From the NCBI GenBank assembly GCA_030765065.1, contig CM060980.1:66572364-66636363 (forward strand): a stretch of 64,000 nt of DNA, read 5' to 3'. This document shows positions 1,903 to 23,300 of this stretch, in pieces (positions within the stretch are counted from its first letter, which is position 1; each line of letters begins with the position of its first letter). Position numbers and translations under genes: made by a program. The notes beneath the pieces were generated by a model, which searched no databases, had not been told where the DNA came from, and saw only the letters and a program-made list of their open reading frames with translations. The stretch comes from Deroplatys truncata. Its lineage: Eukaryota > Arthropoda > Insecta > Mantodea > Mantidae.

Positions 1903-2079
1903 AGTTTTACTTATGGACGCTCTTTAACTACTATGGTCATTAGAGTCCCATTCTATATTGGGCGTGAAAGACCGGTAATTTTGCTCAGAGGCCTCTTTAT
2001 TAGGCTTGAGGTTCTTTTACGTGCCGTAAATCTACGACACGAGACCACCGGCTTTACTTCCCTTCCGCAGGAAGCCATG
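1903..2079 (-). mobile_element. SINE interrupted by the Polinton (3' half)
   Basis: This is the 3' half of a tRNA-derived SINE read on the minus strand. It matches the uninterrupted copy at 23039-23300, which continues from GGAAGCCATG straight into CTAAAGATTTTTACG. In this locus the continuation lies 17.5 kb away at 19553. The join shows that the Polinton inserted into the SINE. Confidence 0.9.
2074..2079. repeat. 6-bp target-site duplication (left copy)
   Basis: GCCATG directly abuts the terminal inverted repeat and recurs at 19553-19558. The unoccupied SINE at 23039-23300 has this hexamer once. Six-bp duplications are the norm for Polinton/Maverick integration. Confidence 0.93.
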
Positions 2080-2114
2080 AGTAGGATATATAGGACAGAC
2101 CTGGCTCACTTTTT

Positions 2115-3180
2115 GCGTTTATATGGGAAAGGATAGGGAAAACGAGGGTATATGCGGTGGTTCACGGAGGAAAATGCGTTTATATGGGGAAGATAGGGAC
2201 TACGAGGATTGATGATAGGCTAGTCAGATGCTAAAGGAGGGAGGGATACGCTTTATACGAGAGAGATAGGGAATACAAGGAAAGATGTTATACTAAACAG
2301 GACTTGAAGGGTAGAATATGTCGTTTTATATGAGCGAGATAGTGAACCGAGGAGAGGTATTAGGCTAGGAGATTTGAATGATAGAGTAGACGTTTATATG
2401 CGAGAGATAGGGAATACGAGGGTCGATGCTAGGCTAGACAGGGTTGAAGTAGGGAATGCGTCTTATATGAGAGAGGTGGGGGAATATGAGGAGAAGTGTT
2501 AGGCTAGACAGGAAGGTCTGAATGACAGAGTATGCGTTTATATGGGAAAGGATAGGGAAAACGAGGGTAGATGCGACAGTTCAAGGAGGAAAATGCGTTT
2601 ATAGGGGAGAGATAGGGAATACCAGGGCTGATGCTAGGCTAGTCAGATGCTAAAGGATGGAGGGATACGCTTTATACGAGAGAGATAGGGGATACAAGGA
2701 AAGATGCTATACTAAACAGGACTTGAAGGGTAGAATATGGCGTTTTATATGAGCGAGATAGCGAACCGAGGAGAGGTATTAGGCTAGGAGTTTTGAATGA
2801 TACAGTAGGCGTTTATATTAGAGAGATAGGGAATACGAGGGTCGATGCTAGGCTAGACAGGGTTGAAGTAGGGAATGCGTCTTATATGAGAGAGGTAGGG
2901 AATATGAGGAGAAGCGCTAGGCTAGACAGGAAGGTCTGAATGACAGAGTATGCGTTTATATGGGAAATATAGGGAAAACGAAGGTAGTGCTAGGTTGAGA
3001 GAGTCTTCAAGGAGGAAAATGCATTTATATGAGAGCGGTAGGGGCATATGAGGAGAGGTGCTAGTCTAGACATGGGTTGAGGAGCAGAGTATACGTTTAT
3101 ATGGGTGAAATATGGATAACGGGAGAGATACAAGGATAGACAGGGTTTGAAGGAGAAGGAATGTAGGTTTATACGGTAAT
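2115..3180. repeat. outer satellite with higher-order periodicity (left)
   Basis: Units of roughly 60-77 bp share the pattern CGTTTATATGGGAGAGATAGGGAATACGAGG. About six units form a larger repeat: the GCGTTTATATGGGAAA variant recurs at 2115, 2534 and 2952, a period of 418-419 bp. It lies just inside the terminal repeat and is mirrored in the right arm. Confidence 0.9.
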
Positions 3181-3398
3181 ATAGAGAGTAATTCGATTAT
3201 AAAACTTTTATCATCCAGCGTTACAACACTTTTATATACTTTTTTCTAAACCTTACAAACTTTTTATATGTTAAAGAGTAGTGTGCGAGACGGAGAGGGA
3301 CAAACTGTATATCGTTTCACAGTGAAGTATACGTCCTAACCTATGCCCACCTTGTATGTTCGACATCTTCTCATTGTCTATTCATTCCTAACATAATC

Positions 3399-3606
3399 AC
3401 GTAACAAGACGTAACCAACAAACGTAACCACGTAACAAGACGTAACACAACGTAACATAACGGCATGACAAGACGTCACACTAAGTAACATAAGCACGTA
3501 TCCTCATAACATCACGTGACCATCACGTAACCAGAAACGTCACACGACGTAACAACACGTAGCAACTATGTAACCATGTAACAAAACGTAAGAATAACAC
3601 GTAACC
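3399..3606. promoter_or_regulatory. phased ACGTAAC motif array (left)
   Basis: About 18 exact or near copies of ACGTAAC, mostly 10-12 bp apart, about one helical turn. Some variants read ACGTCAC, ACGTGAC or ATGTAAC. The array sits between the outer satellite and the 3' side of polB and is mirrored at 18026-18233. A binding array for a replication or transcription factor is an inference from spacing alone. Confidence 0.6.
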
Positions 3607-3851
3607 AGCCCATTCCTAAAGCGATCTAAACTAATTCATCCTTCATAACTTAGACAATAAGTACGAGAACCTAGCCTACATTAACCCGACCAATCCTAAA
3701 CGTTCCTCTCATCATCCATTCTAGTCAGGCATCGACTAACCTAATCTGGCTAACCAAAGATAACCTCAACTTTCTTGTAGTGAAATTGCAATGTTTTATT
3801 CAGGTTTTATTATTCGAGAGTTTCAATTGAAAAGTTTACGTCAACATACCT

Positions 3852-3950
3852 TTATTTTAGTTTGTTGTAGGCGTCTCTCCCCTTTTTATCTAGGCTTGAG
3901 ACTAGCACTAGGATTGCTCCTAATGGCAGGGTTACCACCTTCCCTTCCAT
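3852..3950 (-). CDS. 32-codon micro-ORF downstream of polB (left copy)
   Basis: ATG to TAA encodes MEGKVVTLPLGAILVLVSSL followed by a charged tail ending YNKLK. The residues V6-L20 look like a short membrane segment. The right-arm copy has the same length and differs by one conservative change (L to I). The stop codon overlaps an AATAAA motif that could serve as the polB polyadenylation signal. I recognise no family, and the low number of differences is not itself proof of coding because the arms are similar everywhere. Confidence 0.25.
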   Translation of the reverse strand: MEGKVVTLPLGAILVLVSSLDKKGRDAYNKLK

Positions 3951-4063
3951 CTTCTTCTTTCTTCATCGGTCGTCAGCTAGCTGCATATACAGCACACGGA
4001 TGACCTTCATTTTTTTAAGATTGTAGACTCACGAGAAAATCTTCATATTCGACTGACATTCTC

Positions 4064-7000
4064 TTATGCACTACTTGTAATGCTGTAATGTCCATAGGCG
4101 TATGTCGTTATACCGTCCTCAGCAATAATTCTTTTATCGTCGTATGGTGTCAATGTAATTTTATTCACTTGTACTGCGGCAAGAGCATGCTGTCGCGACA
4201 GGATCAGATTCATGGGCGTTCTGATAATTTCTCTGGTTTTAAGGCAGTCAGTATAGCTCTCGAACGTGACGTACTGCTTAATAGCACTACGTTTTATGCC
4301 TTTAATCTTTTTTATCATTTAACCGTCGATATCTAGGGCATACATTTTAGGTCGTAGCCCTACAAAGCGTTGAATGATTTTACCATTAGCCTCATCTTTA
4401 AATTTCCCAAGTACCTTCTTGTTTAGAGGTGAATAGCATATATGGCTTGTAGGATAATCAGCAGTATCTAGGTGCTCAATAAAACGTAACTTATCCTGGT
4501 ACACATCTTCAGTTGTAACACGATGAATGAACGAATCAGTGTCCATATACATAAGCTTCAGGTTTTCAGCTCCATAATACGGTAGCAACACATCATAGTG
4601 ATACCGGTACATTAATGTCTTGGAGATATCCAACACACTCATACCGATGTATATAGGCTTGTTGAACACGATCTGTCGGGAGGCCATATGTACAGCAGCT
4701 AGATTAGAAGCATATATCGTCCTGTCTATAAACGTTGGCTTTGCAATTAACTTTTCCAGAGTCTTCTCATTTGTCACCAGCCGTATATCCATACGATTAC
4801 GCAGGTTCTCCATAGTTTTTCCGAACATAGCATTGTTGAACAATTTGTAGAGATCCTTCTCAAAATCATTTGCAGCTTGTTGTCGTAGTCTGTTGTTAAA
4901 TTCCACATACGGTTTTAACCATCGAGACTGTTGGAATTGTAGCACACGATGGATTTTTGTTAACCGTAGTCCATGATCAAGAGCTTGCTTCAAAGCCATG
5001 TAATGCACTACATACTTATTTCGAGGTCCTAGATGAGGTATCAGTTTATTTGTAGGAGAGTCCTTAGGCGTCATACACTCAGGCAGGAAAGGTAGATCGT
5101 TGTGTAGATCGTGAAGTTCTGCAGGATACTCGATGTCGACTTCTAATATGTAACCGTAAGGATCATCTTCTTGTAGTCTTTCTAAGTCAATTTTTTCAGG
5201 TGATACCCACTCAAATCCACCATAAGGGAGAGCGTGACTCATTGCCCACCCATATTGGTTGTTGGCGTCCTCATAGGTAATAAATTGGGTTGGTCTCGAC
5301 GGATCATACTTCTCCATGTAGGTGTTATTAGCCTCTGCATAGCGGTGGGAAACTTGACATAAACCTCCTCTTATACCGGATTCCACCATGAGTAATTGAT
5401 CATAATCCTGTAACAATTCCAGCTGAATTCCAGTGTACAGTAACATGGAATCCCATGTAAGTCCTGGAGAGGTGAAATAATGTGCAGGGGCGACTTTGTG
5501 TGTTTTGAGTGTTTGCTCCCTAAATGTCTCAAAGACATCAGCTAGGAGAAGCACATCAGAGATTAAGTAGAGGTCGCTGTACTCACCCAGGTTTCTGACA
5601 TTAAACAGCTCCCATACATTTTTAGCATGATCGTAGTCAGCATCACTAATTTCCTCTTCATTTAATTTATTGTAGGAGTCCTTAGGAGGTAAGCAGGTTT
5701 CGCTCAAGACGTCCCATGAAGTGATGTAATCATAGGGAAATACCCCCTTACGGGTCATCAACTTCAACTTGTCTTCTCCGAAGTACTTCAATGTTTCAGG
5801 ATACGATGTTAGATTTTTTACCAGCTTATCCAAGCTTGTACTCAGGAACCGAAAACTATCTACAAACCGTAGCTTTATATCTCCGACATACTTGGAGAAT
5901 GATATATAGCTTTCTTCAGAGCTAGGAATTACTTCCACCCGCTCACTTGTACATCCCAGCTCCTTAACAATGAAGTGTGAGACATATCCACTGAGGTTGT
6001 GCATGAAGACAGGGATATATTTAGGTGTTTTGCAGGCTAAATTACATTCATTATGCAGACTCCCCCGATATTCACCACTGATGTGATCATGGTCGCGTAC
6101 TTTATAGTTCTCTTCAGTAAAGGTTTTTCCGCACAAGTAGCATACTGTAGAGGCGCTGAAATACAACTGCTGTTGATCTGTAAGTTTCAGGGGCATGACA
6201 GATTTGTATATATTGTTAATCTCCTTTGCAAGGAATGACAGGTATTCCATAAACTTCTGAGCAGCATCAACACCACGATATACATAGGGATGCTTAGGAA
6301 GACCAGTTTCCAGATGTTCAACGTTGGTCGATGGTTTAACGTAAACACAGAAGCTCATTGCTGTGTGCTCTTGATAGGGGGTTGTATAGGAGGTTTCAGG
6401 ACTGGGAATACACGTATGACATGGAGTGAGAATACTCTCAAAATCCGCATAGATGACGTAAGGTAGTTTCAGCATCCTCTCCACATTTTTAAACTGTACA
6501 ATTGATTTATCCTTTGTAGGCATAACTACCCTTGCAACACCATGCTGATTACAGATGGATGCATGTTCTTGCAGTTTTTCCAGCCCACTTTGTCCATATC
6601 AATTGTCAAAATGTGTAAAGCACCGCTTACAGGTATATATCACTCCATCATGCTTAGTTTTCTGACGTCGAACGAGCTTCTCAAAATTCTTGATATATAC
6701 ATAGTGATGTATTCCACTACTGTCACTCAATAGTAGGAGGTCACGGTGGTCAGGTAGTTCCGTGTCAACAACCTTTATCGGATGCACTTCATGCTTCTCA
6801 TCCAGACCGAAAACGTTGATAGACATCCTATTAAGCTTCTCAAATTTAGGTATTTGAGAAAGCGGAGTAGGATAGAAAACACAGCTGAAGTCGTACTTAT
6901 CTTGAAGTTTCTTATATTTGCTTACCCGTAGGGCATTCTTTCCTATGAATTTAGCTAATACAGAGTACATGAAACATAGCTCATCAGTTAAATTCTGGAT

Positions 7001-7714
7001 GTTAATGCAGGCTTTTCTTGCTTCAACAGATGGAGGTAGGGGTATGTAGCTACTTCCTCGTAGCGGATTGTACTTGTTGATACGAAGGCGCACCCCTTCC
7101 ACAGCAAGCAGAGCCCAATTGCTTCCCTTTAGTTGTGATTCCTCCATTTCAGTAACCAATTTCTTCATTTTGGTTTCCAGCATAGAGTCCAGATCCGTTT
7201 CTAGGAAAACAGCTTGATTTCTGGTTTTAAATGTCTTGTCACAGGTTTCTCCGATACTGTTAACAAATCTACACTCAGCTAACAGATTAATTTTCAAACT
7301 CTTGTGAATACCAAGCTCTTTATGCACAGCTTGGATTATCCGCTGTTTTGCTTCATGCAGGTATATATTCAGATCCTTAGTTGATTCACATCGTATAAAA
7401 TACGATTTCAAGCGTCCATGGAATGAAGTTTCATATTCTTTCATGTCACACTCCTCCATTGCAGATAACAACTCTTGCTTTGACGGTTCTAATCTACGTT
7501 TCTTCTCAGGTCTGTTTATTTCACACACATCTTCGTGTCGACGACCCTTATAACTGTCTTTGAAGGCTACATTACAATATTTACACTTGAAGAACTTTTT
7601 ACAACGTAGCTCACGTCGTCTTTTATCATATCCACGGAGGAACTTCTTACAGCATTTACCACAAGAATATCCTGAGACACTAGGAATGATATCCTTATAC
7701 GAGGACTTATTCAT
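4064..7714 (-). pseudogene. polB: Polinton protein-primed-type DNA polymerase B, left copy
   Basis: Family B polymerase for replicating a linear element, 1216 codons plus stop in one frame. Two C2HC zinc motifs come first; the first (C18, C21, position 34, C38) has lost its His (H34R). A third zinc motif lies at C362-C388. Exo I is Y-A-D424-F-E426. An HNH/endonuclease VII-like insert has CxxC at 525-528 and DHDH at 541-544. Exo II should be GYDSHF but reads V at 578. Exo III is Y716-D720. Polymerase motif A is DANNQYG from D816, B is KLFNNAMFGKT near 957, and C is MDTDSF with D1058/D1060. Breaks: TGA at codon 372 (6599-6601; CGA in the other arm) and TAA at codon 1132 (4319-4321; also in the other arm). 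I chose the ATG at 7714 because it precedes the first zinc motif directly; an in-frame ATG lies at 7849. Confidence 0.93.
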
Positions 7715-7863
7715 TTTTCTTCTTGATATAATAAGGTATTTACCTTTCTTCAAGGAAATGTACGCCTTGATATCACTTAGAAAGCTTATTATTTTCTGAG
7801 AGAACAGCGATGTTAACACCTCAGAGATGATCAACAGAATGCATTTCAATACTCAAGTTCGCT

Positions 7864-7872
7864 CTATTTATA
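7864..7872 (-). promoter_or_regulatory. TATA box of left polB
   Basis: TATAAATAG on the minus strand, 150 bp upstream of the chosen polB ATG. The same motif stands twice upstream of the right-arm polB. Confidence 0.6.
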
Positions 7873-8149
7873 GAGAAAGCACGAACCTTTTTATAATCAA
7901 TTATATCCTTATTATTAATACTAAAAACGGTGATGAAGCGTGTAAGCTCTTATATATTTCAATTCGTGTTACACTGATGTTCGAGCGTCTCCGTATAGCT
8001 TCGTATGCTTAGAGAGAAAGTGTAAAGTATTGTGAAGATGTTACGTATTGTTCGGCTATAATCGTACAGATTCGGAGAGCTTGACTGGTGAAGGTGATGA
8101 ACGATCCGTCGACCGAGCAGGAGGCAAGCATTCCCCTCGCGCAACGAAA

Positions 8150-8745
8150 CCTAGATGCAAAAGAAAGAAAATCGTGATAGATGAGAAACCACCCATACAT
8201 TCGCCTGCAGACCATGGAAAACCATGAAAAAATATGTCAGAGTGAACGTCCAACGGAACTCGAACCAGGGACTCTAAAAGCACACGTGAAAGATACAAAT
8301 TATATAGAATGAAAGGAAATCGGTGACGATGAGAAACCACTCCAGCATTCGCCTGCAGACCAGGGAAAACCCTAAAAAATATGATGTCAGAGTGATCAAC
8401 CAACAGGAATCAAACAAAAGACCTTAGAAGCATATAGGTTAAGATGTAAATCAAATAAAAATGCAATAAAATCGTGCTAGATGAGAAACCACCCAGACAT
8501 TCGCCTACAGACCAGGCAAAACCATGAAAAATATGTCAGAGTAAACAAACAACGACAATCGAACGAGGGAAACATTCAGATTACTCTAGAATCATAAAGT
8601 TGCAAATGAAAGAAAATCGTGATAGATGAGAACCCACTCAGGCATTCGCCTGCAGACCAGCGAAAATCGTGAGAAACGTAAGGTCAGAGTGCTCGCCCCT
8701 ACGGGAATCGAATCCGAGACATCTCGAATGCAAAGTGCTGCCGTT
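8150..8745 (-). repeat. four-unit SINE-like tandem array (left)
   Basis: Mirror image of the array at 12735-13340. Each unit holds a B-box-like GGTTCGA segment, CACTCTGACAT, GGTCTGCAGGCGAATG and GGTTTCTCATC. These also form the body module of the free SINEs in this window. Open frames here are by-products of the repeat. Confidence 0.8.
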
Positions 8746-8910
8746 ATTTACTGAACAAAACAGTATAAACAGACCTCATTAGCAGTCGACATGCTTAAGC
8801 ACGTTAACTTTCACCATATGACGTCACAGTGGGGGACAGTTTGACTGTCGCAGCCATGTCGAGACATGCTTCTCATATTCTAGCATCATACCAACGTACT
8901 CACTACGCTC

Positions 8911-9800
8911 GCAAAGATAATCTAAGATTTCATCGTTGAAATACTTTGGAAATAGCGTAGATGTTTTTCAGCCCTTATTTAATTAAAATTCATGTATATA
9001 CCCTATTATTTAGTGATTTTTTCAATAATTTCTTACTCTCATCTCAATCATTCATCAAAAAATCAGTGTACAATATGCATTTTTATACGTTTTAATGTTC
9101 GTTTATTTCTAAAACCGCTGCATTTGCCCGTAATTACGAGCAATAATTTTTTTTCAGATTTACCCAGATGTGTAGCTTGTAGAATCGAATTAGGAAATGT
9201 TTTAATAAATGTATTGTATTTTTTTTAGCTTAAAGTATCTACATTTTAAAGCCGCCATGACCGTTATTTGTATTTAGTATAAAGATTGTTATATTTTCAT
9301 TTTTAAGACTTCCTTTGTTAAAGATAATGTCTTGCAATCTAATTTTTAAATTTCTTTTGCAAAGATAATCTAAAATCTCATCGTTGAAATACTTTGGAAA
9401 TAGTGTAGAAGTTTTTCCACCCTTATTTAATTAAATTCATGTATATACCCTATTATTTAGTGATTTTTTCAATAATTTCTTCCTCTCATTCTTCAACAAA
9501 TCAGTGTACAATACGCATTTTTATACGTTTTAATGTTCGTTTATTTTTTAAAAAAACCGCTGCATTTGCCCGTAATTACGAGCAATAATTTTTTTCAGAT
9601 TTACTCCGATTTTTAGCTTATAGAATCGAATTAGGAAATGTTTTAATAAATGTATTGTATTTTTTTAGCTTTAAGTATCTACATTTTTAAAGCTGCCATG
9701 ACCGTTATTTGTATTTAGTATAAAGATTGTTATATTTTCATTTTTAAGACTTCCTTTGTTAAAGATAATGTCTTGCAATCTATTTTTAAATTTCTTTTAA
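8911..9800. repeat. two-unit 448-bp AT-rich tandem (left)
   Basis: The sequence beginning GCAAAGATAATCTAA at 8911 restarts at 9359. The two units are nearly the same throughout and end with a block containing TCTTGCAATCTA. The pair recurs inverted in the right arm. No coding signal. Confidence 0.93.
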
Positions 9801-9879
9801 AACCAAAGCGAACGTTAACAACTATAATGGCTGCCTTCATGTATTGAAAAGCTAACATGGCCGCTTCAGTCGTCTTTTA

Positions 9880-10110
9880 GAAGCGTACCTTACATGTAGG
9901 TAAGGAAGGTAGCATCAGCTGGCGGAGAGGAGAAGGCTTGCGAAAGGCGGCTGAGGGGCGGCACCTGGAGTGAGTAAGGTAGGGATGAAAGGCCGGCTTC
10001 ATGAGGCGCTGAGAGCTAGCCGAGACCGCCAGTACGGCACAGCACGCCGTAAGGGTCGGACCAAATACAGTGTCGAGCTTATACAGCTGCAGCGCTCGTC
10101 AGCGTTTTAC
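9880..10110. other. GC-rich inner-arm block (left)
   Basis: Distinctly GC-richer than its surroundings, with GGCGG and CCGCC motifs, and conserved in the right arm at 11350-11570. No ORF. It could be a promoter or captured host sequence; the sequence alone does not decide. Confidence 0.4.
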
Positions 10111-10504
10111 GTAATCTAGTTATTTACGCTCACTATACCATTTAAGTCTACATTCATCTAAGAGATATAATATTCGTCAGGATGACAGATGTCCAAATAT
10201 ACATTACAAAGAAATTAGTTATTGATATAAATGTAATATCGTACGTTCACCATTTTATTTTTAATTACTTTTTTATTTTATTCCAGGATGACTTTGTATT
10301 CATGTCACTGGATTCAATCCTAGTCCTCCAGCCCGACTTGGAACAACAATCAATAACGAGCTACAATCCAAGGATATAATCGGTAATAATAAAAAAAAAA
10401 TTTTTTTGATAAAGACCGTCAAATAAAAAGCTCTGTAAACGTATGTAAACGTATGTACTTCCCCTCTTCCCCCACCCTACAGTAGATAATAGATAGCGAC
10501 TCTG

Positions 10505-10949
10505 AGGCGCCATGGGCCGATCATATGATCGTATAACCGGAGGACATGTGGTTTCACGCCCCCGCCTTCTGTGCGACCACTACACTGCCGCTAACGACGG
10601 GAGCAATGGCGGATTGTCCACACCACCATTAACGATGAGAACTATCCGCCATTTTCAATATTGCTAAGGGTAGCGATCAGGATATCACATAAGGAAAGGG
10701 GCGGGACCAGCGTACGGGGGCAATACCTTATTGGCCTCGTACGCAACCCCGCTCCTCCACAGGGAACCTATTGGACCAGACCATTAAGGAAGTGGGGGAG
10801 GCTGTGGAGGGAGGCGTTAGGGGTTAGACCACAATGGAGGGGAGGGTGGCGCGTGCCAGGCGGCAAAGCGGTCAGGACAGAGGAAGGGGGCGGGGCTTGC
10901 CGGCATACAACAAAGGATCTTATCAGTGGTCGGCATCTCCTTTGTGCGC
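10505..10949. other. unique centre of the palindrome
   Basis: The only part of the element without an inverted partner. It is GC-rich and contains GC-box-like GGGGCGGG near 10697 and GGGGGCGGGG near 10887. No convincing ORF. It separates the two arms exactly where a replication turn-around or recombination junction would lie. Confidence 0.85.
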
Positions 10950-11654
10950 CAGAGTCGCTATCTATTATCTACTGTAGGGTGGGTGAAGAGGGGAAGTGAG
11001 GGGAAATACATACGTTTACAGAGCTTTTTATTTGACGGTCTTTATCAAAAAAAAATTTTTTTATTATTACCGATTATATTCTTGGATTGTAGCTCGTTAT
11101 TGATTGTTGTTCCAAGTCGGGCTGGAGGACTAGGATTGAATCCAGTGACATGAATACAAAGTCATCCTCGAATAAAATAAAAAAAGTAATTAAAAATAAA
11201 ATGGTGAACGTACGATATTACATTTATATCAATAATTAATTTCTTTGTAATGTATATTTAGACATCTGTCATCCTGACGAATATTATATCTCTTAGATGA
11301 ATGTATATTTAAGTAGTATAGTGAGCGTAAATAACTAGATTACGTAAAACGCTGACGAGCGCTGCAGCTGTATAAGCTCGACACTGTATTAGGTCCGACC
11401 CTTACGGCGTGCTGTGCCGTACTGGCGGTCTCGGCTAGCTCTCAGCGCCTCACGAAGCCGGCCTTTCATCCCTACCTTACTCACTCCAGGTGCCGCCCCT
11501 CAGCCGCCTTTCGCAAGCCTTCTCCTCTCCGCCAGCTGATGCTACCTTCCTTACCTGCATGTAAGGTACGCTTCTAAAAGACAACTGAAGCGGCCATGTT
11601 AGCTTTTTAAATACATGAAGGCAGCCATTATAGTTGTAAACGTTCGCTTTGGTT

Positions 11655-12546
11655 TTAAAAGAAATTTAAAAATAGATTGCAAGACATTATCTTTAACAAA
11701 GGAAGTCTTAAAAATGAAAATATAACAATCTTTATACTAAATACAAATAACGGTCATGACAGCTTTAAAAATGTAGATACTTAAAGCTAAAAAAATACAA
11801 TACATTTATTAAAACATTTCCTAATTCGATTCTATAAGCTAAAAATTGGAGTAAATCTGAAAAAAATTATTGCTCGTAATTACGGGCAAATGCAGCCAGC
11901 GGTTTTTTTAAAAAATAAACGAACATTAAAACGTATAAAAATGCGTATTGTACACTGATTTTTTGAAGAATGAGAGGAAGAAATTATTGAAAAAATCACT
12001 AAATAATAGGGTATATACATGAATTTAATTAAATAAGGGTGGAAAAACTTCTACACTATTTCCAAAGTATTTCAACGATGAGATTTTAGATTATCTTTGC
12101 AAAAGAAATTTAAAAATTAGATTGCAAGACATTATCTTTAACAAAGTAAGTCTTAAAAATGAAAATATAACAATCTTTATACTAAATACAAATAACGGTC
12201 ATGGCGGCTTTAAAATGTAGATACTTTAAGCTAAAAAAAATACAATACATTTATTAAAACATTTCCTAATTCGATTCTACAAGCTACACATCTGAGTAAA
12301 TCTGAAAAAAAATTATTGCTCGTAATTACGGGCAAATGCAGCGGTTTTAAAAATAAACGAACATTAAAACGTATAAAAATGCATATAGTACACAGATTTT
12401 TTGATGAATGATTGAGATGAGAGGAAGAAATTATTGAAAAAATCACTAAATAATAGGGTATATACATGAATTTTAATTAAATAAGGGCTGAAAAACTTCT
12501 ACGCTATTTCCAAAGTATTTCAACGATGAAATCTTAGATTATCCTT
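11655..12546. repeat. 448-bp AT-rich tandem (right)
   Basis: Inverted equivalent of 8911-9800, again two units, with small indels between arms (for example one short duplicated CAGC near 11897). Confidence 0.9.
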
Positions 12547-12734
12547 GCGAGCGTAGTGAGTACGTTGGTATGATGCTAGAATATGAGAAGCATGTCTCGA
12601 GATGGCTGCGACAGTCAAACTGTCCCCGACTGTGACGTCATATGGTGAAAGTTAACGTGCTTAAGCATGTCGACTGCTAATGAGGTCTGTTTTTACTGTT
12701 TTGTTCAGTCAATAACGGCAGCACTTTGCATTCG

Positions 12735-13340
12735 AGATGTCTCGGATTCGATTCCCGTAGGGGCGAGCACTCTGACCTTACGTTTCTCACGATTTTCGCT
12801 GGTCTGCAGGCGAATGCCTGAGTGGGTTCTCATCTATCACGATTTTCTTTCATTTGCAACTTTATGATTCTAGAGTAATCTGAATGTTTCCCTCGTTCGA
12901 TTGTCATTGGTTGTTTACTCTGACATATTTTTCATGGTTTTGCCTGGTCTGTAGGCGAATGTCTGGGTGGTTTCTCATCTAGCACGATTTTATTGCATTT
13001 TTATTTGATTTACATCTTAACCTATATGCTTCTAAGGTCTTTTGTTTGATTCCTGTTGGTTGATCACTCTGACATCATATTTTTTAGGGTTTTCCCTGGT
13101 CTGCAGGCGAATGCTGGAGTGGTTTCTCATCGTCACCGATTTCCTTTCATTCTATATAATTTGTATCTTTCACGTGTGCTTTTAGAGTCCCTGGTTCGAG
13201 TTCCGTTGGACGTTCACTCTGACATATTTTTTCATGGTTTTCCATGGTCTGCAGGCGAATGTCTGGGTGGTTTCTCATCTATCACGATTTTCTTTCTTTT
13301 GCATCTAGGTTTCGTTGCGCGAGGGGAATGCTTGCCTCCT
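12735..13340 (+). repeat. four-unit SINE-like tandem array (right)
   Basis: ACTCTGAC recurs at 12769, 12917, 13066 and 13216, a very regular spacing of 148-150 bp. Units diverge from each other more than the two arms diverge, so the array formed before the palindrome. Each unit has a B-box-like segment such as GGATTCGATTCCC or GGTTCGAGTTCC. The last unit runs on into a SINE-type sequence (TCTAGGTTTCGTTGCG). Confidence 0.85.
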
Positions 13341-13586
13341 GCTCGGTCGACGGATCGTTCATCACCTTCACCAGTCAAGCTCTCCGAATCTGTACGATTA
13401 TAGCCGAACAATACATAACATCTTCACAATACTTTACACTATCTCTCTAAGCATACGAAGCTATACGGAGACGCTCGAACATCAGTGTAACACGAATTGA
13501 AATATATAAGAGCTTACACGCTCCATCACCGTTTTTAGTATTAATAATCAGGATATAATTGATTAAAAAAAGGTTCGTGCTTTCTC

Positions 13587-13595
13587 TATAAATAG
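13587..13595 (+). promoter_or_regulatory. TATA box, distal promoter unit of right polB
   Basis: TATAAATAG, about 333 bp before the chosen ATG, in the first of the two tandem promoter units. Confidence 0.5.
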
Positions 13596-13761
13596 AGCGA
13601 ACTTGAGTATTGAAATGCACTCTGTTGATCATCTCTGAGGTGTTAACATCGCTGTTCTCTCAGAAAATAATCTAAAGTGTTATCAATGTGAAGAAGAGTA
13701 CATTTCCTTGAAGAAGGGCTAATACGTTATATAATTGATGAATAAAGGTTGGTGCTTCCTC

Positions 13762-13770
13762 TATAAATAG
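13762..13770 (+). promoter_or_regulatory. TATA box, proximal promoter unit of right polB
   Basis: TATAAATAG, 175 bp after the distal one and 150 bp before the ATG, the same distance as in the left arm. Confidence 0.6.
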
Positions 13771-13919
13771 AGCATCCTCTAGCATTGAAATTCATTCTGT
13801 TGATCATCTCTGAGGTGTTAACATCGCTGTTCTCTCAGAAAATAATAAGCTTTCTAAGTGATATCAAGGCGTACATTTCCTTGAAGAAAGGTAAATACCT
13901 TATTATATCAAGAAGAAAA

Positions 13920-16900
13920 ATGAATAAGTCCTCGTATAAGGATATCATTCCTAGTGTCTCAGGATATTCTTGTGGTAAATGCTGTAAGAAGTTCCTCCGT
14001 GGATATGATAAAAGACGACATGAGCTACGTTGTAAAAAGCTCTTCAAGTGTAAATATTGTAATGTAGCCTTCAAAGACGGTTATAAAGGTCGTCGACACG
14101 AAGATGTGTGTGAAATAAACAGACCTGAGAAGAAACGTAGATTAGAACCGTCAAAGCAAGAGTTGTTATCTGCAATGGAGGAGTGTGACATGAAAGAATA
14201 TGAAACTTCATTCCATGGACGCTTGAAATCGTATTTTATACGATGTGAATCAACTAAGGATCTGAATATATACCTGCATGAAGCAAAACAGCGGATAATC
14301 CAAGCTGTGCATAAAGAGCTTGGTATTCACAAGAGTTTGAAAATTAATCTGTTAGCTGAGTGTAGATTTGTTAACAGTATCGGAGAAACCTGTGACAAGA
14401 CATTTAAAACCAGAAATCAAGCTGTTTTCCTAGAAACGGATCTGGACTCTATGCTGGAAACCAAAATGAAGAAATTGGTTACTGAAATGGAGGAATCACA
14501 ACTAAAGGGAAGCAATTGGGCTCTGCTTGCTGTGGAAGGGGTGCGCCTTCGTATCAACAAGTACAATCCGCTACGAGGAAGTAGCTACATCCCTACCTCC
14601 ATCTGTTGAAGCAAGAAAAGCCTGCATTAACATCCAGAATTTAACTGATGAGCTATGTTTCATGTACTCTGTATTAGCTAAATTCATAGGAAAGAATGCC
14701 CTACGGGTAAGCAAATATAAGAAACTTCAAGATAAGTACGACTTCAGCTGTGTTTTCTATCCTACTCCGCTTTCTCAAATACCTAAATTTGAGAAGCTTA
14801 ATAGGATGTCTATCAACGTTTTCGGTCTGGATGAGAAGCATGAAGTGCATCCGATAAAGGTTGTTGACACGGAACTACCTGACCACCGTGACCTCCTACT
14901 ATTGAGTGACAGTAGTGGAATACATCACTATGTATATATCAAGAATTTTGAGAAGCTCGTTCGACGTCAGAAAACTAAGCATGATGGAGTGATATATACC
15001 TGTAAGCGGTGCTTTACACATTTTGACAATCGATATGGACAAAGTGGGCTGGAAAAACTGCAAGAACATGCATCCATCTGTAATCAGCATGGTGTTGCAA
15101 GGGTAGTTATGCCTACAAAGGATAAATCAATTGTACAGTTTAAAAATGTGGAGAGGATGCTGAAACTACCTTACGTCATCTATGCGGATTTTGAGAGTAT
15201 TCTCACTCCATGTCATACGTGTATTCCTAGTCCTGAAACTTCCTATACAACCCCTTATCAAGAGCACACAGCAATGAGCTTCTGTGTTTACGTTAAACCA
15301 TCGACCAACGTTGAACATCTGGAAACTGGTCTTCCTAAGCATCCCTATGTATATCGTGGTGTTGATGCTGCTCAGAAGTTTATGGAATACCTGTCATTCC
15401 TTGCAAAGGAGATTAACAATATATACAAATCTGTCATGCCCCTGAAACTTACAGATCAACAGCAGTTGTATTTCAGCGCCTCTACAGTATGCTACTTGTG
15501 CGGAAAAACCTTTACTGAAGAGAACTATAAAGTACGCGACCATGATCACATCAGTGGTGAATATCGGGGGAGTCTGCATAATGAATGTAATTTAGCCTGC
15601 AAAACACCTAAATATATCCCTGTCTTCATGCACAACCTCAGTGGATATGACTCACACTTCATTGTTAAGGAGCTGGGATGTACAAGTGAGCGGGTGGAAG
15701 TAATTCCTAGCTCTGAAGAAAGCTATATATCATTCTCCAAGTATGTCGGAGATATAAAGCTACGGTTTGTAGATAGTTTTCGGTTCCTGAGTACAAGCTT
15801 GGATAAGCTGGTAAAAAATCTAACATCGTATCCTGAAACATTGAAGTACTTCGGAGAAGACAAGTTGAAGTTGATGACCCGTAAGGGGGTATTTCCCTAT
15901 GATTACATCACTTCATGGGACGTCTTGAGCGAAACCTGCTTACCTCCTAAGGACTCCTACAATAAATTAAATGAAGAGGAAATTAGTGATGCTGACTACG
16001 ATCATGCTAAAAATGTATGGGAGCTGTTTAATGTCAGAAACCTGGGTGAGTACAGCGACCTCTACTTAATCTCTGATGTGCTTCTCCTAGCTGATGTCTT
16101 TGAGACATTTAGGGAGCAAACACTCAAAACACACAAAGTCGCCCCTGCACATTATTTCACCTCTCCAGGACTTACATGGGATTCCATGTTACTGTACACT
16201 GGAATTCAGCTGGAATTGTTACAGGATTATGATCAATTACTCATGGTGGAATCCGGTATAAGAGGAGGTTTATGTCAAGTTTCCCACCGCTATGCAGAGG
16301 CTAATAACACCTACATGGAGAAGTATGATCCGTCGAGACCAACCCAATTTATTACCTATGAGGACGCCAACAACCAATATGGGTGGGCAATGAGTCACGC
16401 TCTCCCTTATGGTGGATTTGAGTGGGTATTACCTGAAAAAATTGACTTAGAAAGACTACAAGAAGATGATCCTTACGGTTACATATTAGAAGTCGACATC
16501 GAGTATCCTGCAGAACTTCACGATCTACACAACGATCTACCTTTCCTGCCTGAGTGTATGACGCCTAAGGACTCTCCTACAAAGAAACTGATACCTCATC
16601 TAGGACCTCGAAATAAGTATGTAGTGCATTACATGGCTTTGAAGCAAGCTCTTGATCATGGACTACGGTTAACAAAAATCCATCGTGTGCTACAATTCCA
16701 ACAGTCTCGATGGTTAAAACCGTATGTGGAATTTAACAACAGACTACGACAACAAGCTGCAAATGATTTTGAGAAGGATCTCTACAAATTGTTCAACAAT
16801 GCTATGTTCGGAAAAACTATGGAGAACCTGCGTAATCTTATGGATATACGGCTGGTGACAAATGAGAAGACTCTGGAAAAGTTAATTGCAAAGCCAACGT

Positions 16901-17568
16901 TTATAGACAGGACGATATATGCTTCTAATCTAGCTGCTATGCATATTGCCTCCCGACAGATTCTGTTCAACAAGCCTATATACATCGGTATGAGTGTGTT
17001 GGATATCTCCAAGACATTAATGTACCGGTATCACTATGATGTGTTGCTACCGTATTATGGAGCTGAAAACCTGAAGCTTATGTATATGGACACTGATTCG
17101 TTCATTCATCGTGTTACAACTGAAGATGTGTACCAGGATAAGTTACGTTTTATTGAGCACCTAGATACTGCTGATTATCCTACAAGCCATATATGCTATT
17201 CACCTCTAAACAAGAAGGTACTTGGGAAATTTAAAGATGAGACTGATGGTAAAATCATTCAACGCTTTGTAGGGCTGCGACCTAAAATGTATGCCCTAGA
17301 TATCGACGGTTAAATGATAAAAAAGATTAAAGGCATAAAACGTAGTGCTATTAAGCAGTACGTCACGTTCGAGAGCTATACTGACTGCCTTAAAACCAGA
17401 GAAATTATCAGAACGCCCATGAATCTGATCCTGTCGCGACAGCATGCTCTTGCCACAGTACAAGTGAATAAAATTACATTGACACCATACGACGATAAAA
17501 GAATTATTGCTGAGGACGGTATAACGACATACGCCTATGGACATTACAGCATTACAAGTAGTGCATAA
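13920..17568 (+). pseudogene. polB: Polinton protein-primed-type DNA polymerase B, right copy
   Basis: Same protein as the left copy, with the same order of zinc motifs, exonuclease motifs, HNH-like insert and polymerase motifs A, B and C. Here the first zinc motif keeps its His at 34 and Exo II keeps its Asp at 578. A 2-nt deletion near 14590 shifts the frame after about residue 223; reading resumes in the second frame and stays open to 17313. A TAA at 17311-17313 (codon 1132) is shared with the left arm. The 85 codons after it still encode the normal C-terminal block, including MNLILSRQHALA and an EDGITTYAYGHY end. The gene lies about 1.3 kb downstream of the 448-bp tandem and reads toward the element's end. 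It is broken as it stands. About a dozen residues differ between arms. Confidence 0.93.
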
Positions 17569-17681
17569 GAGAATGTCAGTCGAATATGAAGATTTTCTCG
17601 TGAGTCTACAATCTTAAAAAAATGAAGGTCATCCGTGTGCTGTATATGCAGCTAGCTGACGACCGATGAAGAAAGAAGAAG

Positions 17682-17780
17682 ATGGAAGGGAAGGTGGTAA
17701 CCCTGCCATTAGGAGCAATCCTAGTAATAGTCTCAAGCCTAGATAAAAAGGGGAGAGACGCCTACAACAAACTAAAATAA
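17682..17780 (+). CDS. 32-codon micro-ORF downstream of polB (right copy)
   Basis: Starts 114 bp after the polB C-terminal stop on the same strand and ends in a TAA that overlaps AATAAA (17776-17781). One residue differs from the left copy. A hydrophobic stretch is followed by a DKKGRDAYNKLK tail. Function unknown; it may be chance. Confidence 0.25.
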   Translation: MEGKVVTLPLGAILVIVSSLDKKGRDAYNKLK

Positions 17781-18025
17781 AGGTATGTTGACGTAAACTT
17801 TTCAATTGAAACTCTCGAATAATAAAACCTGAATAAAACATTGCAATTTCACTACAAGAAAGTTGAGGTTATCTTTGGTTAGCCAGATTAGGTTAGTCGA
17901 TGCCTGACTAGAATGGATGATGAGAGGAACGTTTAGGATTGGTCGGGTTAATGTAGGCTAGGTTCTCGTACTTATTGTCTAAGTTATGAAGGATGAATTA
18001 GTTTAGATCGCTTTAGGAATGGGCT

Positions 18026-18233
18026 GGTTACGTGTTATTCTTACGTTTTGTTACATGGTTACATAGTTGCTACGTGTTGTTACGTCGTGTGACGTTTCTG
18101 GTTACGTGATGGTCACGTGATGTTATGAGGATACGTGCTTATGTTACTTAGTGTGACGTCTTGTCATGCCGTTATGTTACGTTGTGTTACGTCTTGTTAC
18201 GTGGTTACGTTTGTTGGTTACGTCTTGTTACGT
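18026..18233. promoter_or_regulatory. phased GTTACGT motif array (right)
   Basis: Inverted partner of 3399-3606, with the same motif order and spacing. Confidence 0.6.
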
Positions 18234-18451
18234 GATTATGTTAGGAATGAATAGACAATGAGAAGATGTCGAACATACAAGGTGGGCATAGGTTAGGACG
18301 TATACTTCACTGTGAAACGATATACAGTTTGTCCCTCTCCGTCTCGCACACTACTCTTTAACATATAAAAAGTTTGTAAGGTTTAGAAAAAAGTATATAA
18401 AAGTGATGTAACGCTGGATGATAAAAGTTTTATAATCGAATTACTCTCTAT

Positions 18452-19517
18452 ATTACCGTATAAACCTACATTCCTTCTCCTTCAAACCCTGTCTATCCTT
18501 GTATCTCTCCCGTTATCCATATTTCACCTATATAAACGTATACTCTGCTCCTCAACCCATGTCTAGACTAGCACCTCTCCTCATATGCCCCTACCGCTCT
18601 CATATAAATGCATTTTCCTCCTTGAAGACTCTCTCAACCTAGCACTACCTTCGTTTTCCCTATCTTTCCCATATAAACGCATACTCTGTCATTCAGACCT
18701 TCCTGTCTAGCCTAGCGCTTCTCCTCATATTCCCTACCTCTCTCATATAAGACGCATTCCCTACTTCAACCCTGTCTAGCCTAGCATCGACCCTCGTATT
18801 CCCTATCTCTCGCATATAAACGCCTACTGTATCATTCAAAACTCCTAGCCTAATACATCTCCTCGGTTCGCTATCTCGCTCATATAAAACGCCATATTCT
18901 GCCCTTCAAGTCCTGTTTAGTTTAGCATCTTTCCTTGTATCCCCTATCTCTCTCGTATAAAGCGTATCCCTCCCTCCTTTAGCATCTGACTAGCCTAGCA
19001 TCAGCCCTGGTATTCCCTATCTCTCCCCTATAAACGCATTTTCCTCCTTGAACTGTCGCATCTACCCTCGTTTTCCCTATCCTTTCCCATATAAACGCAT
19101 ACTCTGTCATTCAGACCTTCCTGTCTAGCCTAACACTTCTCCTCATATTCCCCCACCTCTCTCATATAAGACGCATTCCCTACTTCAACCCTGTCTAGCC
19201 TAGCATCGACCCTCGTATTCCCTATCTCTCGCATATAAACGTCTACTCTATCATTCAAAACTCCTAGCCTAATACCTCTCCTCGGTTCACTATCTCGCTC
19301 ATATAAAACGCCATATTCTACCCTTCAAGTCCTGTTTAGTATAACATCTTTCCTTGTATTCCCTATCTCTCTCGTATAAAGCGTATCCCTCCCTCCTTTA
19401 GCATCTGACTAGCCTAGCATCAATCCTCGTAGCCCCTATCTTCCCCATATAAACGCATTTTCCTCCGTGAACCACCGCATATACCCTCGTTTTCCCTATC
19501 CTTTCCCATATAAACGC
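18452..19517. repeat. outer satellite (right)
   Basis: Inverted partner of the 70/419-bp satellite at 2115-3180. CATATAAACGC marks unit starts. Its last unit runs into the terminal repeat. Confidence 0.9.
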
Positions 19518-19552
19518 AAAAAGTGAGCCAGGTCTGTCCTATATATCCTACT

Positions 19553-19558
19553 GCCATG
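19553..19558. repeat. 6-bp target-site duplication (right copy)
   Basis: GCCATG immediately after the element's last base (T19552), followed by CTAAGAATTTT as in the unoccupied SINE copy. Confidence 0.93.
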
Positions 19559-21241: not shown

Positions 21242-21245
21242 ATAT

Positions 21246-22371
21246 TGTAGCGGACCAGGTTGCACATATTTCGTATACCAGGAAGTGTGAAGTTCAGGTT
21301 AGCAGAATTCGTCCACGCCGCACTACGCCGAGTCAGCGCTTATGTATGTATTTATACTACAGGGTTTTTGACTCGGTCGTGAGAGTGTGAGTGTGAGTTG
21401 CCTCTTGGTTGTTGCCAAGAGGTTGTTGTTGCTACGAGAGAGTCGTCAGATTAGGTATCAGTTTCGAGACCCGTCGCCACCAGTCAACAGGTAAGCATGC
21501 GACTCATCTAAGTTCTCTTGACTTGTCGGGGCTTCACCCCTAAGTTCTATTGACTTGTCGGGGCTTCACCAGATAACCTCAGGCAAAAGGTTATCCCAAA
21601 ATGAGGCGTATTTTACACCTTGCAAAAAGACGAAAGGAAAAAAAAGAGGTAGAGGTAAGGATGTTTTCCCCAATTATACTCGGTGAGTCCGCCACATTGT
21701 AGCCGGCGCTCCACCACACTGTAGCCGGCGCCTACACCACGTTGTAACACCCCACGGAGGTGTTTACCCCCGCAGTAGGTGATTACACAGGGGTGTTGGT
21801 AGCTCAGAGGTACGGGGGGATGCGTTGGTACCGGGGTGGTAGGCAGGCCACGGTGGCGTTCTAGGATAGGGGTATTTAAATAAAGCACAGGGGATGCATT
21901 GGCCCAATAAATTATACTTGTAGCTTTAAGTATGCGTACATTCAGTTCGGGGTGAAGCCCCGACAAGTCAATAGAACTTAGGGGTGAAGCCCCGACAAGT
22001 CAATAGAACTTAGGGGTGAAGCCCCGACAAGTCAATAGAACTTAGGGGTGAAGCCCCGACAAGTCAATAGAACTTAGGGGTGAAGCCCCGACAAGTCAAG
22101 AGAACTTAGATGAGTCGCATGCTTACCTGTTGACTGGTGGCGACGGGTCTCGAAACTGATACCTAATCTGACGACTCTCTCGTAGCAACACCAACCTCTT
22201 GGCAACAACCACGAGGCAACTCACACTCACACTCTCACGACCGAGTCAAAAACCCTGTAGTATAAATACATACATAAGCGCTGACTCGGCGTAGTGCGGC
22301 GTGGACGAATTCTGCTAACCTGAACTTCACACTTCCTGGTATACGAAATATGTGCAACCTGGTCCGCTACA
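21246..22371. mobile_element. foldback-type element with TGT...ACA ends
   Basis: Inverted arms of about 330 bp (21246-21573 and about 22030-22371) begin TGTAGCGGACCAGGTTGCAC and are flanked by ATAT on both sides (21242-21245, 22372-22375). The arms are nearly identical. The core of about 400 bp has short GTAGCCGGCG repeats and no convincing gene; a 117-codon minus-strand frame there has no recognisable domain. TG...CA ends with a 4-bp duplication would also suit an LTR-derived structure. Confidence 0.75.
21949..22108. repeat. five-copy 32-bp tandem with hairpin core
   Basis: GGGGTGAAGCCCC recurs at 21949, 21981, 22013, 22045 and 22077, exactly 32 bp apart. The left arm of the same element has only two units, so copy number differs between arms. 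Confidence 0.95.
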
Positions 22372-22375
22372 ATAT

Positions 22376-23038: not shown

Positions 23039-23300
23039 TTTTAGTTTTATTTATGGACGCTCTTTAACTACTGTGGTTTTATATTGGGTGTGAAAGACCG
23101 GAAGGTTTGCTCAGAGGCCTCTTTATCAGGTTTGGGGTTCTTTTACGTACCGTAAATCTGCGACACGGGACCACCGGCTTTACTTCCCTTCCAAAGGAAG
23201 CCATGCTAAAGATTTTTACGCCCGGAAAATTCTTGCTCTCCTGCCGAGTTTGAACACGCGACCTCGGGAACTGTAGGATAGCATGTTACTCCTTTCCACG
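23039..23300 (-). mobile_element. tRNA-derived SINE, uninterrupted reference copy
   Basis: Same family as the SINE split by the Polinton. It is continuous through GGAAGCCATGCTAAAG, which gives the pre-insertion state of the target site. The tRNA-like head is at the right end, with a weakened B box (GTGTTCAAACTC). Confidence 0.85.

Follow-up and report, generated by a model that had tools for sequence, protein, structure and literature searches.

Palindromic elements of Polinton descent carrying paired PolB genes in the genome of the mantis Deroplatys truncata

Introduction

To our knowledge, the replication of Polintons has never been watched; what is said of it derives from sequence. The extrachromosomal rDNA of Tetrahymena and Physarum forms a large palindrome whose short centre is not palindromic; its genes are divergent and its arms are kept alike. 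Foldback elements feature very long inverted repeats around a short middle, with arms made of non-coding repeat arrays. Palindromic defective genomes of adenoviruses are self-complementary and helper-dependent, and the snap-back genomes of adenovirus and AAV are by-products of infection. According to PMC8235507, AAV snapback genomes are self-complementary and use helper-supplied replication enzymes. Teratorn (herpesvirus–piggyBac) is described in PMC6431247 as giant, with long inverted repeats and a unique region. Vertebrate Mavericks measure 12.7–24.6 kb, with terminal repeats of 46–1447 bp, AGT ends and 6-bp duplications (PMC8097293).

The element of Deroplatys truncata described here shares with Polintons/Mavericks of the adintovirus type the PolB family, the 6-bp target duplication and AGT-type ends, and its relatives with mirror-image PolB genes span 13.3–27.7 kb, comparable to the vertebrate Maverick range cited above. 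Unlike Mavericks, the palindromes have two PolB genes and, in the pieces read, no integrase, ATPase or capsid; the whole 8.4–8.6-kb arm takes the place of the Maverick terminal repeats and their unique core. The likeness to adenovirus and AAV snap-back defective genomes lies in self-complementarity from one end and in helper replication enzymes, but here one palindrome appears to have been inherited, diversified and multiplied in the germ line. The rDNA palindromes, alike in their short centre, divergent genes and like arms, are telomeric cellular minichromosomes, not transposable and without PolB or target duplication. Teratorn is similar in giant size and long inverted repeats but has unrelated enzymes and a unique region and is not palindromic overall. 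Foldback elements, alike in their very long inverted repeats around a short middle, differ in ends, duplications and non-coding arms without PolB. No report of palindromic Polintons was found in the titles and abstract openings listed from an open-access collection, a scope outside which preprints and most subscription papers lie.

Results

Architecture and ends of the element

The window, that is, the whole 64,000-nt stretch analysed, corresponds to positions 66,572,364–66,636,363 of the forward strand of CM060980.1 (GCA_030765065.1). An inverted-repeat search and an alignment at the centre resolve positions 2080–19552 into two inverted arms. The search returned six inverted blocks, all 92–99% complementary (2080–7041/14591–19552, 7041–7890/13744–14593, 7788–9562/11897–13671, 9559–9850/11605–11896, 9844–10279/11175–11610 and 10253–10406/11047–11200), and the alignment extends the repeat to 10504/10950, leaving a 445-bp spacer (Table 1). 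The arms, cut at 10507/10951, differ by 85 substitutions in 8421 columns (1.0%); a shorter alignment gave 76 substitutions in 8325 columns and 5 indels, the largest of 175 bp. Immediately inside the flanking GCCATG duplication the element reads AGTAGG..CCTACT. When up to 3 mismatches are allowed, the window contains the terminal 22-mer only at 2080 and 19552, with no matches in shuffles; therefore, there is no second pair of ends in the centre. No tRNA genes were found in the 64-kb window.

Table 1. Features of the palindromic element, in window coordinates
Feature	Positions	Strand	Basis
Target-site duplication GCCATG, left copy, 6 bp	2074..2079	.	flank read
Left palindrome arm	2080..10504	.	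inverted repeats and arm alignment
Left terminal region: AGTAGGATATATAGG end plus a degenerate tandem array (period 419 bp, 2114–2987)	2080..3190	+	
Left-arm PolB gene, outward; open stretches 4319–6598 and 6599–7852, stop-terminated (broken frame)	4064..7852	-	
Inner part of left arm, lacking a long ORF; repeats of 148-bp period 8159–8554, 441-bp duplication 8911–9798	7906..10504	.	
Non-palindromic centre, 445 bp	10505..10949	.	alignment at centre
Right palindrome arm	10950..19552	.	inverted repeats and arm alignment
Right-arm PolB gene, outward; open stretches 13785–14609 and 14527–17313 in different frames (broken)	13785..17568	+	C-terminal end placed from left-arm symmetry
Right-arm terminal tandem array and end ..CCTATATATCCTACT	18460..19552	-	
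Target-site duplication GCCATG, right copy, 6 bp	19553..19558	.	flank read

Coding content and centre

In each arm of the window element lies an outward-pointing PolB that matches PF03175 (E = 7e-23 and 7e-24) and also has an Endonuclease_7 domain. Among its relatives is the PolB of an adintovirus of the dragonfly Ladona, at 48%. The two remaining ORFs of at least 120 aa are N-terminal pieces of PolB without a Pfam match. In types B and C, PF03175 was recovered with a PolB fragment, the full-length proteins matching nothing beyond Endonuclease_7 and, weakly, DUF7128. One type-B copy has a 1225-aa PolB open in both arms, and PolB is the only long ORF in the palindromes read. Thirteen non-PolB proteins of two ordinary Polintons, including both integrases, the ATPase, the capsid and others, had no tblastn match at E ≤ 0.01 in 18 palindrome or derivative pieces, in which the PolB controls did match; as a positive control, the C16 integrase found its C12 relative at 96%. 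Six exact peptide patterns revealed no relative in viral contigs, and solved structures gave no match by sequence.

The centre (10508–10950) has a GC-content of 57%, against 33% at 9001–10507, a CpG observed/expected ratio of 0.81 and two GGGCGG boxes. On sequence grounds, the 445-bp centre is a putative divergent promoter serving both PolB genes.

The initial annotation of this DNA had read it as a Polinton derivative with two arms inverted around a 445-bp spacer, a single GCCATG duplication around the whole, two polB genes and neither integrase nor capsid. The inverted repeats with the alignment at the centre, the flanks, the PF03175 domain in each arm, the PolB family with AGT-type ends and 6-bp duplication, and the tblastn result for the pieces read agree with that description throughout.

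Target duplications and ordinary Polintons

The 6-bp target-site duplication is exact in 10 of 11 insertions and off at one base in the eleventh; two of the exact ones (TATATA and CATAAC) sit in simple repeats and carry little weight. The AGT..ACT-type ends agree independently only for the window element, as the other copies were located through that word and therefore agree by construction.

Ordinary Polintons inhabit the same genome. The one at C16:593793663–593811508 encodes an rve integrase (6.7e-10) and an A32 ATPase and has an 838-bp terminal repeat and a GTTAGG duplication. Its ends and those of the C12 Polinton are similar, not identical, to the palindrome ends; the C12 and type-D ends agree at 20 of 32 positions, compared with a mean of 8.2 in letter shuffles, none of which (0/20,000) scored as high. 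Going by this likeness of ends, the proteins that integrated the palindromes probably acted in trans.

Genome-wide family

Two subfamily-specific PolB words were searched through the whole genome with at most one mismatch. They gave 1641 (809 + 832) and 1770 (883 + 887) matches, counts that may overlap, since the element at C1:198.32–198.34 Mb is matched by both; the reversed-pattern controls gave none. Among the first 100 listed matches of the first word, 84 form 42 divergent (−,+) pairs and 16 are single; for the second word, 92 form 46 such pairs and 8 are single. No neighbours in other orientations occurred within 30 kb among the first 100 of either word. At 36 of the 41 terminus pairs listed, PolB is present in both arms in mirror orientation. 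In this family a palindromic build is the rule rather than the exception. Arms were aligned over their whole length in the window element and one type-B copy, and centres were also read in C3, C13_156 and one type-C copy; the remaining palindromes are called from sampled PolB.

The other five listed terminus pairs are short and have one PolB. Such 9–12 kb elements were considered as an ancestral monomer and rejected: in each of the four whose join was read through, a different deletion cuts through the centre, and two of the four retain part of the second PolB. In the fifth (C1:224883246–224893089), where the read covered the left terminus and sequence beyond the left 3.25 kb, the one PolB lies towards the right end.

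Two PolB genes could also come from two ordinary Polintons lying head-to-head. This is refuted by a centre without a terminus, a single duplication found only on the outside and the recurrence of the mirror layout at the listed terminus pairs, and we give it practically no credence; the confinement of the terminal 22-mer to the outer ends bears out the earlier description of one palindromic unit.

Subfamilies, common centre and selection

The centres of the window element, two type-A copies, type B and type C are homologous by sequence comparison, and the arm/spacer junction is homologous across subfamilies about 14% apart. For most of the inner arm, types A and B show no clear match to each other; the junction sequence shared with B amounts to 58 bp. 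PolB is under purifying selection between subfamilies: dN/dS is 0.147 at dS 0.16 for B versus C, 0.12 at dS 0.42 for the window element versus C and 0.108 at dS 0.54 for the window element versus B. In the type-B copy, dS between the two PolB genes is 0.

The initial annotation explained the palindrome as a defective genome, produced from an ordinary Polinton by snap-back or template switching, integrated once in trans and fossilised. Integration in trans remains probable, and the palindrome, the one target duplication, the missing integrase and capsid and the ordinary Polintons of the same genome all suit this account. A one-off fossil is refuted by the recurrence of the element, seen in the genome-wide word matches, the mirror pairs among those listed and the terminus pairs, and by the centre common to the subfamilies; purifying selection on PolB and the existence of a very young type-B copy with both PolB frames open also contradict it. 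We regard it as extremely improbable. The search for further copies and the parent that the annotation called for gave a family with homologous centres, and no integrase-bearing parent among the listed terminus pairs.

Alternatively, an unseen non-palindromic master could repeatedly give birth to palindromes at a fixed turn-around site, none of them replicating as a palindrome. This would account for near-identical arms in each copy and, in the master, for selection on PolB; the fast-evolving centre also fits, the 34-mer at the arm/spacer junction having only 7 matches genome-wide (up to 2 mismatches). Yet none of the 41 listed terminus pairs holds an integrase-bearing element with these ends, none of the 38 ATPase hits (150 of 1207 candidates scored) falls inside them, and the one-PolB elements whose joins were read each stem from a distinct deletion through the centre. 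The same turn-around site would also have to be retained across lineages at dS of about 0.5. We consider this origin improbable.

Similarity of the arms

Within one element the arms are 97.7–100% alike (13 sampled elements), closer to each other than to the arms of other elements. The end tree joins the two arms as sisters for 10 elements of 11, and the PolB tree does so for 13 of 16, the other three being unresolved. The arms of the type-B copy with both halves read differ by 4 substitutions in 7833 columns, and those of B_C2_5 by none in 797. Within the PolB region, 20 of 24 differences in the window element and 23 of 24 in C3 occur in a single arm only, the six "other" arms of this comparison including L003, which is about 13% off the others and probably misaligned.

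An assembly fold-back is a further rival, since long-read libraries are known to produce artefactual palindromes. The distinct insertion sites, each with a duplication on either outer side, the differences private to one arm and the trees in which sister arms carry element-specific changes speak against it, as the initial annotation had argued from arm divergence; its probability is vanishingly small.

Given the recurrence and the divergence of PolB between subfamilies, set against near-identical arms, palindromy looks ancestral and inherited, and the arms look homogenised within each element. One reading of the stage is gene conversion after insertion, evening initially unequal arms as in sex-chromosome palindromes; it concerns the homogenisation step only and is compatible with the rest of our interpretation. 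The differences in the window element are patchy (over-dispersed, variance/mean 1.79, p = 0.03) and leave one stretch of 943 bp identical. In the type-C copy an identical run reaches 1038 bp against a mean gap of 144. Both observations allow conversion after insertion. In C2_22 the ends belong to two clades (85% alike) despite an exact duplication; either arms sometimes differ already at insertion, or conversion has since altered one end. Against this reading, differences in C3, C13_156, B and C are not over-dispersed (p = 0.56–1.0), most differences are private to one arm, and the young-looking type-B arms are already near-identical. In the pooled counts, changes present in both arms seem to have been under selection (N 63, S 75) when compared with those in one arm (N 70, S 20; Fisher 1.3e-6; 9 ambiguous changes excluded). 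Without types B and C the both-arm changes look neutral (N 22, S 7), as conversion would have it; the contrast thus vanishes, and the mechanism is not rested on it. Overall, conversion after insertion is unlikely as the main step.

Discussion

The window element is, in our judgement, quite probably one copy of a large, palindromic, PolB-only family of Polinton derivation, with inherited palindromy and integration in trans. Units are built as end–PolB–spacer–PolB–end, the whole arm serving as terminal inverted repeat. What is observed looks like an inherited, multiplying palindrome lineage, which may have originated once through a snap-back-like accident.

Under this preferred interpretation, the palindrome would have been born once, before the split of the sampled subfamilies, and passed on as a palindrome since. 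Replication would be carried out by a protein-primed polymerase of the Polinton type, encoded by the element itself or a sister copy. Each displaced strand, being self-complementary, could pair with itself to give a hairpin whose stem is about 8.5 kb long. Mutual correction of the arms would follow, through mismatch repair, gene conversion or fold-back copying. Integrase would come from ordinary Polintons of the same genome with similar end sequences, and copies would degenerate once inserted, in some cases shedding the centre along with most of one arm. More tentatively, and at slightly less than even chances, the elements replicate in a novel manner, as fully self-complementary replicons of the germ line: in each protein-primed round the freed strand folds on itself, and every cycle re-makes the two arms alike.

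A successful lineage with its whole body as terminal repeat ties palindromy to copying success and suggests that PolB and ends can suffice for multiplication with a borrowed integrase. The family is also a natural experiment on how long palindromes persist in chromosomes. If the arms are made alike at birth, their divergence dates each insertion, providing a clock similar to that of LTRs. If the self-folding replicon is true, every copy would carry a proof-reading duplicate of the polymerase gene, and the family would live without an integrase or capsid of its own, borrowing them from ordinary Polintons.

Structure of the palindromic element

The window corresponds to C6:66572364-66636363 on chromosome 6 of the 4.29-Gb assembly. 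Two inverted arms surround a 445-bp centre, both outer ends carry the terminal word AGTAGGATATATAGG.., and GCCATG flanks the whole on both sides, which confirms the palindrome claimed in the initial annotation. The terminal word has no further occurrence in the window beyond these ends; hence, the palindrome is one unit and not two adjacent Polintons, the arrangement weighed against it.

Position of the palindrome components in the window
Feature	Coordinates	Length	Basis
Inverted arms	2080-10504 and 10950-19552		Repeat search and alignment at the centre
Centre between arms	10505-10949	445 bp	

Cut at 10507/10951, the arms differ by 85 substitutions over 8421 aligned positions; a slightly shorter alignment contains five indels, the biggest of 175 bp. 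Each arm has one Polinton-type PolB gene directed outward. The frame is broken in both arms, and all ORFs of at least 120 aa within the element are PolB pieces. The nearest named PolB relatives are from Rhodnius, Hylaeus and Halyomorpha, which suggests an arthropod host. In the copies read of types A (the window's own subfamily) and C (locus L045), the centre is GC-rich with GC boxes and the inner arm is AT-rich; by composition, this centre looks like a divergent animal promoter. It evolves quickly, with seven genome-wide matches to the junction 34-mer.

The 129 bp directly left of the palindrome (1951-2079) are 90% identical to 23077-23205, located 3.5 kb beyond its right end. This similarity breaks off precisely where the palindrome inserted, possibly within a dispersed repeat. 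A 329-bp inverted repeat (21242-21570 and 22047-22375, 99.4%) built of 32-bp tandem units (GGGGTGAAGCCCCGACAAGTCAATAGAACTTA) is apparently a separate small element. A short ORF at 26432-26794 matches DDE_3, a Tc1/mariner-type endonuclease (E = 5e-8), and the adjoining ORF 26770-27273 has no Pfam match.

Genome-wide distribution

The PolB probe found 12 inverted-neighbour pairs among 40 full-length matches (40 of 4372 candidates scored). When up to two mismatches are allowed, the terminal 30-mer matches the genome 160 times in forward and 147 times in reverse orientation (control 0). Pairing of ends drew on 100 listed of these 307 matches, and 82 of the 100 form 41 pairs 9.3-27.7 kb long. All 41 were sampled: PolB lies in mirror orientation in both arms of 36, and the other five, all short, show a single PolB. 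Ten of the 36 came from the PolB probe, 23 from arm sampling (some with one arm from other searches) and three were established one by one; the right arm of one, at C2:133.30 Mb, was found by a PolB-word match. Arm sampling alone located PolB in both arms of 23 of 24 elements.

Two PolB words were chosen to separate subfamily A from subfamily B. With up to one mismatch, the former gave 809 + 832 matches and the latter 883 + 887 (control 0 for each). Orientation was counted on the first 100 listed matches per word, which follow genome order and contain no mismatch. Those for A (chromosomes 1 and 2) comprise 42 divergent pairs and 16 singles, and those for B (chromosome 1) 46 divergent pairs and 8 singles; neighbours oriented otherwise are absent from both lists. 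By chance, a site would be expected to have about 0.01 neighbours inside 30 kb. If the remainder resembles the listed matches, A and B together would amount to well over a thousand insertions. Type-B pair spacing is 6860-6890 bp in 23 of 46 cases, and among the 27 B elements with both ends, three share a length of exactly 16,922 bp; such uniformity is what a recent burst would leave. The further copies proposed as a check thus proved numerous, and the reading of the palindrome as a one-off defective genome was not borne out.

Integration and relation to ordinary Polintons

Both ends are in hand for 11 elements, all located by the terminal word. Ten of them are flanked by perfect 6-bp duplications; no two of these are the same, and two lie in simple repeats. 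The eleventh has a one-base mismatch between its copies. The family moves like a Polinton; vertebrate Mavericks, according to PMC8097293, duplicate 6 bp of target, end in AGT-type sequences and carry terminal repeats of 46-1447 bp. Integrase, capsid and short terminal repeats, by which membership is judged, are lacking in the palindrome pieces read, so the lineage is a strongly derived, PolB-only Polinton and not a full member. The open-access literature matches listed, a scope outside which preprints and most subscription papers fall, contain no report of palindromic Polintons.

With an E cut-off of 0.01, tblastn matched none of thirteen non-PolB proteins of two ordinary Polintons from the same genome (integrase, ATPase, capsid and others) to any of 18 palindrome or derivative pieces, while both PolB controls matched; the absence of integrase, ATPase and capsid noted initially therefore holds. 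Ordinary Polintons are many, with at least 38 A32 packaging ATPase hits (150 of 1207 candidates scored), none of the 38 inside the 41 terminus pairs. One on chromosome 12 has frames for a double-jelly-roll capsid gene, ATPase and PolB, an integrase-like frame below cut-off (rve, E = 0.0027) and an 837-bp terminal repeat (96%); a 6-bp duplication was looked for at its ends and not found. In its close relative, C16:593793663-593811508, the integrase is clear (E = 6.7e-10) and occurs with an ATPase and a phospholipase domain; this element has an 838-bp terminal repeat (97%) and is flanked by a GTTAGG duplication. The gene block read there (C16:593799500-593806500) contains integrase, an A32-type ATPase and a phospholipase A2-like protein, the last also with a weak Adeno_PX match below cut-off.

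Compared with the type-D palindrome end, the chromosome 12 end (AGTAGTAGGGATATAGGGTTTCTGGGCCACTT) has the same base at 20 of 32 positions, with CTGGGCCACTT at the same offset; none of 20,000 letter shuffles reached this agreement. The chromosome 16 end differs from the chromosome 12 end at one position. With ends that are similar but not identical, the palindromes were likely integrated in trans by ordinary Polintons' proteins.

Homogenisation and decay of the arms

A tree of 30 element ends groups the two ends of an element as sisters for 10 of 11 elements; in the PolB tree, arms are sisters in 13 of 16, with three unresolved and none contradicting. In 13 elements, 800-bp samples were taken from both sides and PolB was located; their arms are 97.7-100% identical in these samples. 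Most arm differences in the PolB region are private to one arm (20 of 24 for the window copy, 23 of 24 for the C3 copy); a further 7 and 13 changes, respectively, occur in both arms but in none of six other A arms. Consequently, the two arms were nearly identical at a time later than the split between copies, and drift has followed.

This equalisation probably took place in the replicating form, the displaced strand of the palindrome folding on itself: the arms are nearly identical even in B copies that look young, and arm differences are evenly spread in four of five copies tested. Gene conversion after insertion, the less probable course, would fit the patchy differences (p = 0.03) and 943-bp identical run of the window copy, and a 1038-bp identical run in a C copy. 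A class-of-change test pooling all types (N 63/S 75 in the shared phase vs N 70/S 20) favours selection in the shared phase; without types B and C (N 22/S 7), there is no difference, as conversion after insertion would allow. Element C2:22126071-22144544 also bears on the timing: its TGCCTC duplication is exact, yet its ends, 85% alike, come from different clades, a pattern that recombination between two lineages ahead of insertion, or later conversion of one end, could produce. Separately, C1:178650097-178673384 combines type-C ends with a PolB nearer type A; subfamilies exchange modules.

Four of the five short one-PolB elements were read across the join. In all four, both ends persist but the centre is gone, together with much of one arm. 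No ancestral monomer was seen. Their joins all differ, so palindromes were lost one by one.

Age of the palindromic lineage

About 700 bp around the window copy's centre is homologous to two other A copies (82-95%). The arm/spacer junction matches subfamily C at 81% over 179 bp, and the adjoining spacer edge matches B at 83% over 58 bp (E = 9e-11). PolB comparisons from one subfamily to another give dS of 0.16-0.54 and dN/dS of 0.11-0.15. The C copy has an uninterrupted 1225-aa PolB frame in its left arm, and the B copy read has one in each arm; between these two B arms, PolB dS is 0, and over their whole length they differ by four substitutions in 7833 columns. On these alignments, the palindrome looks ancestral to the sampled subfamilies, and the best reading replaces a one-off fossil with an inherited, multiplying palindromic lineage.
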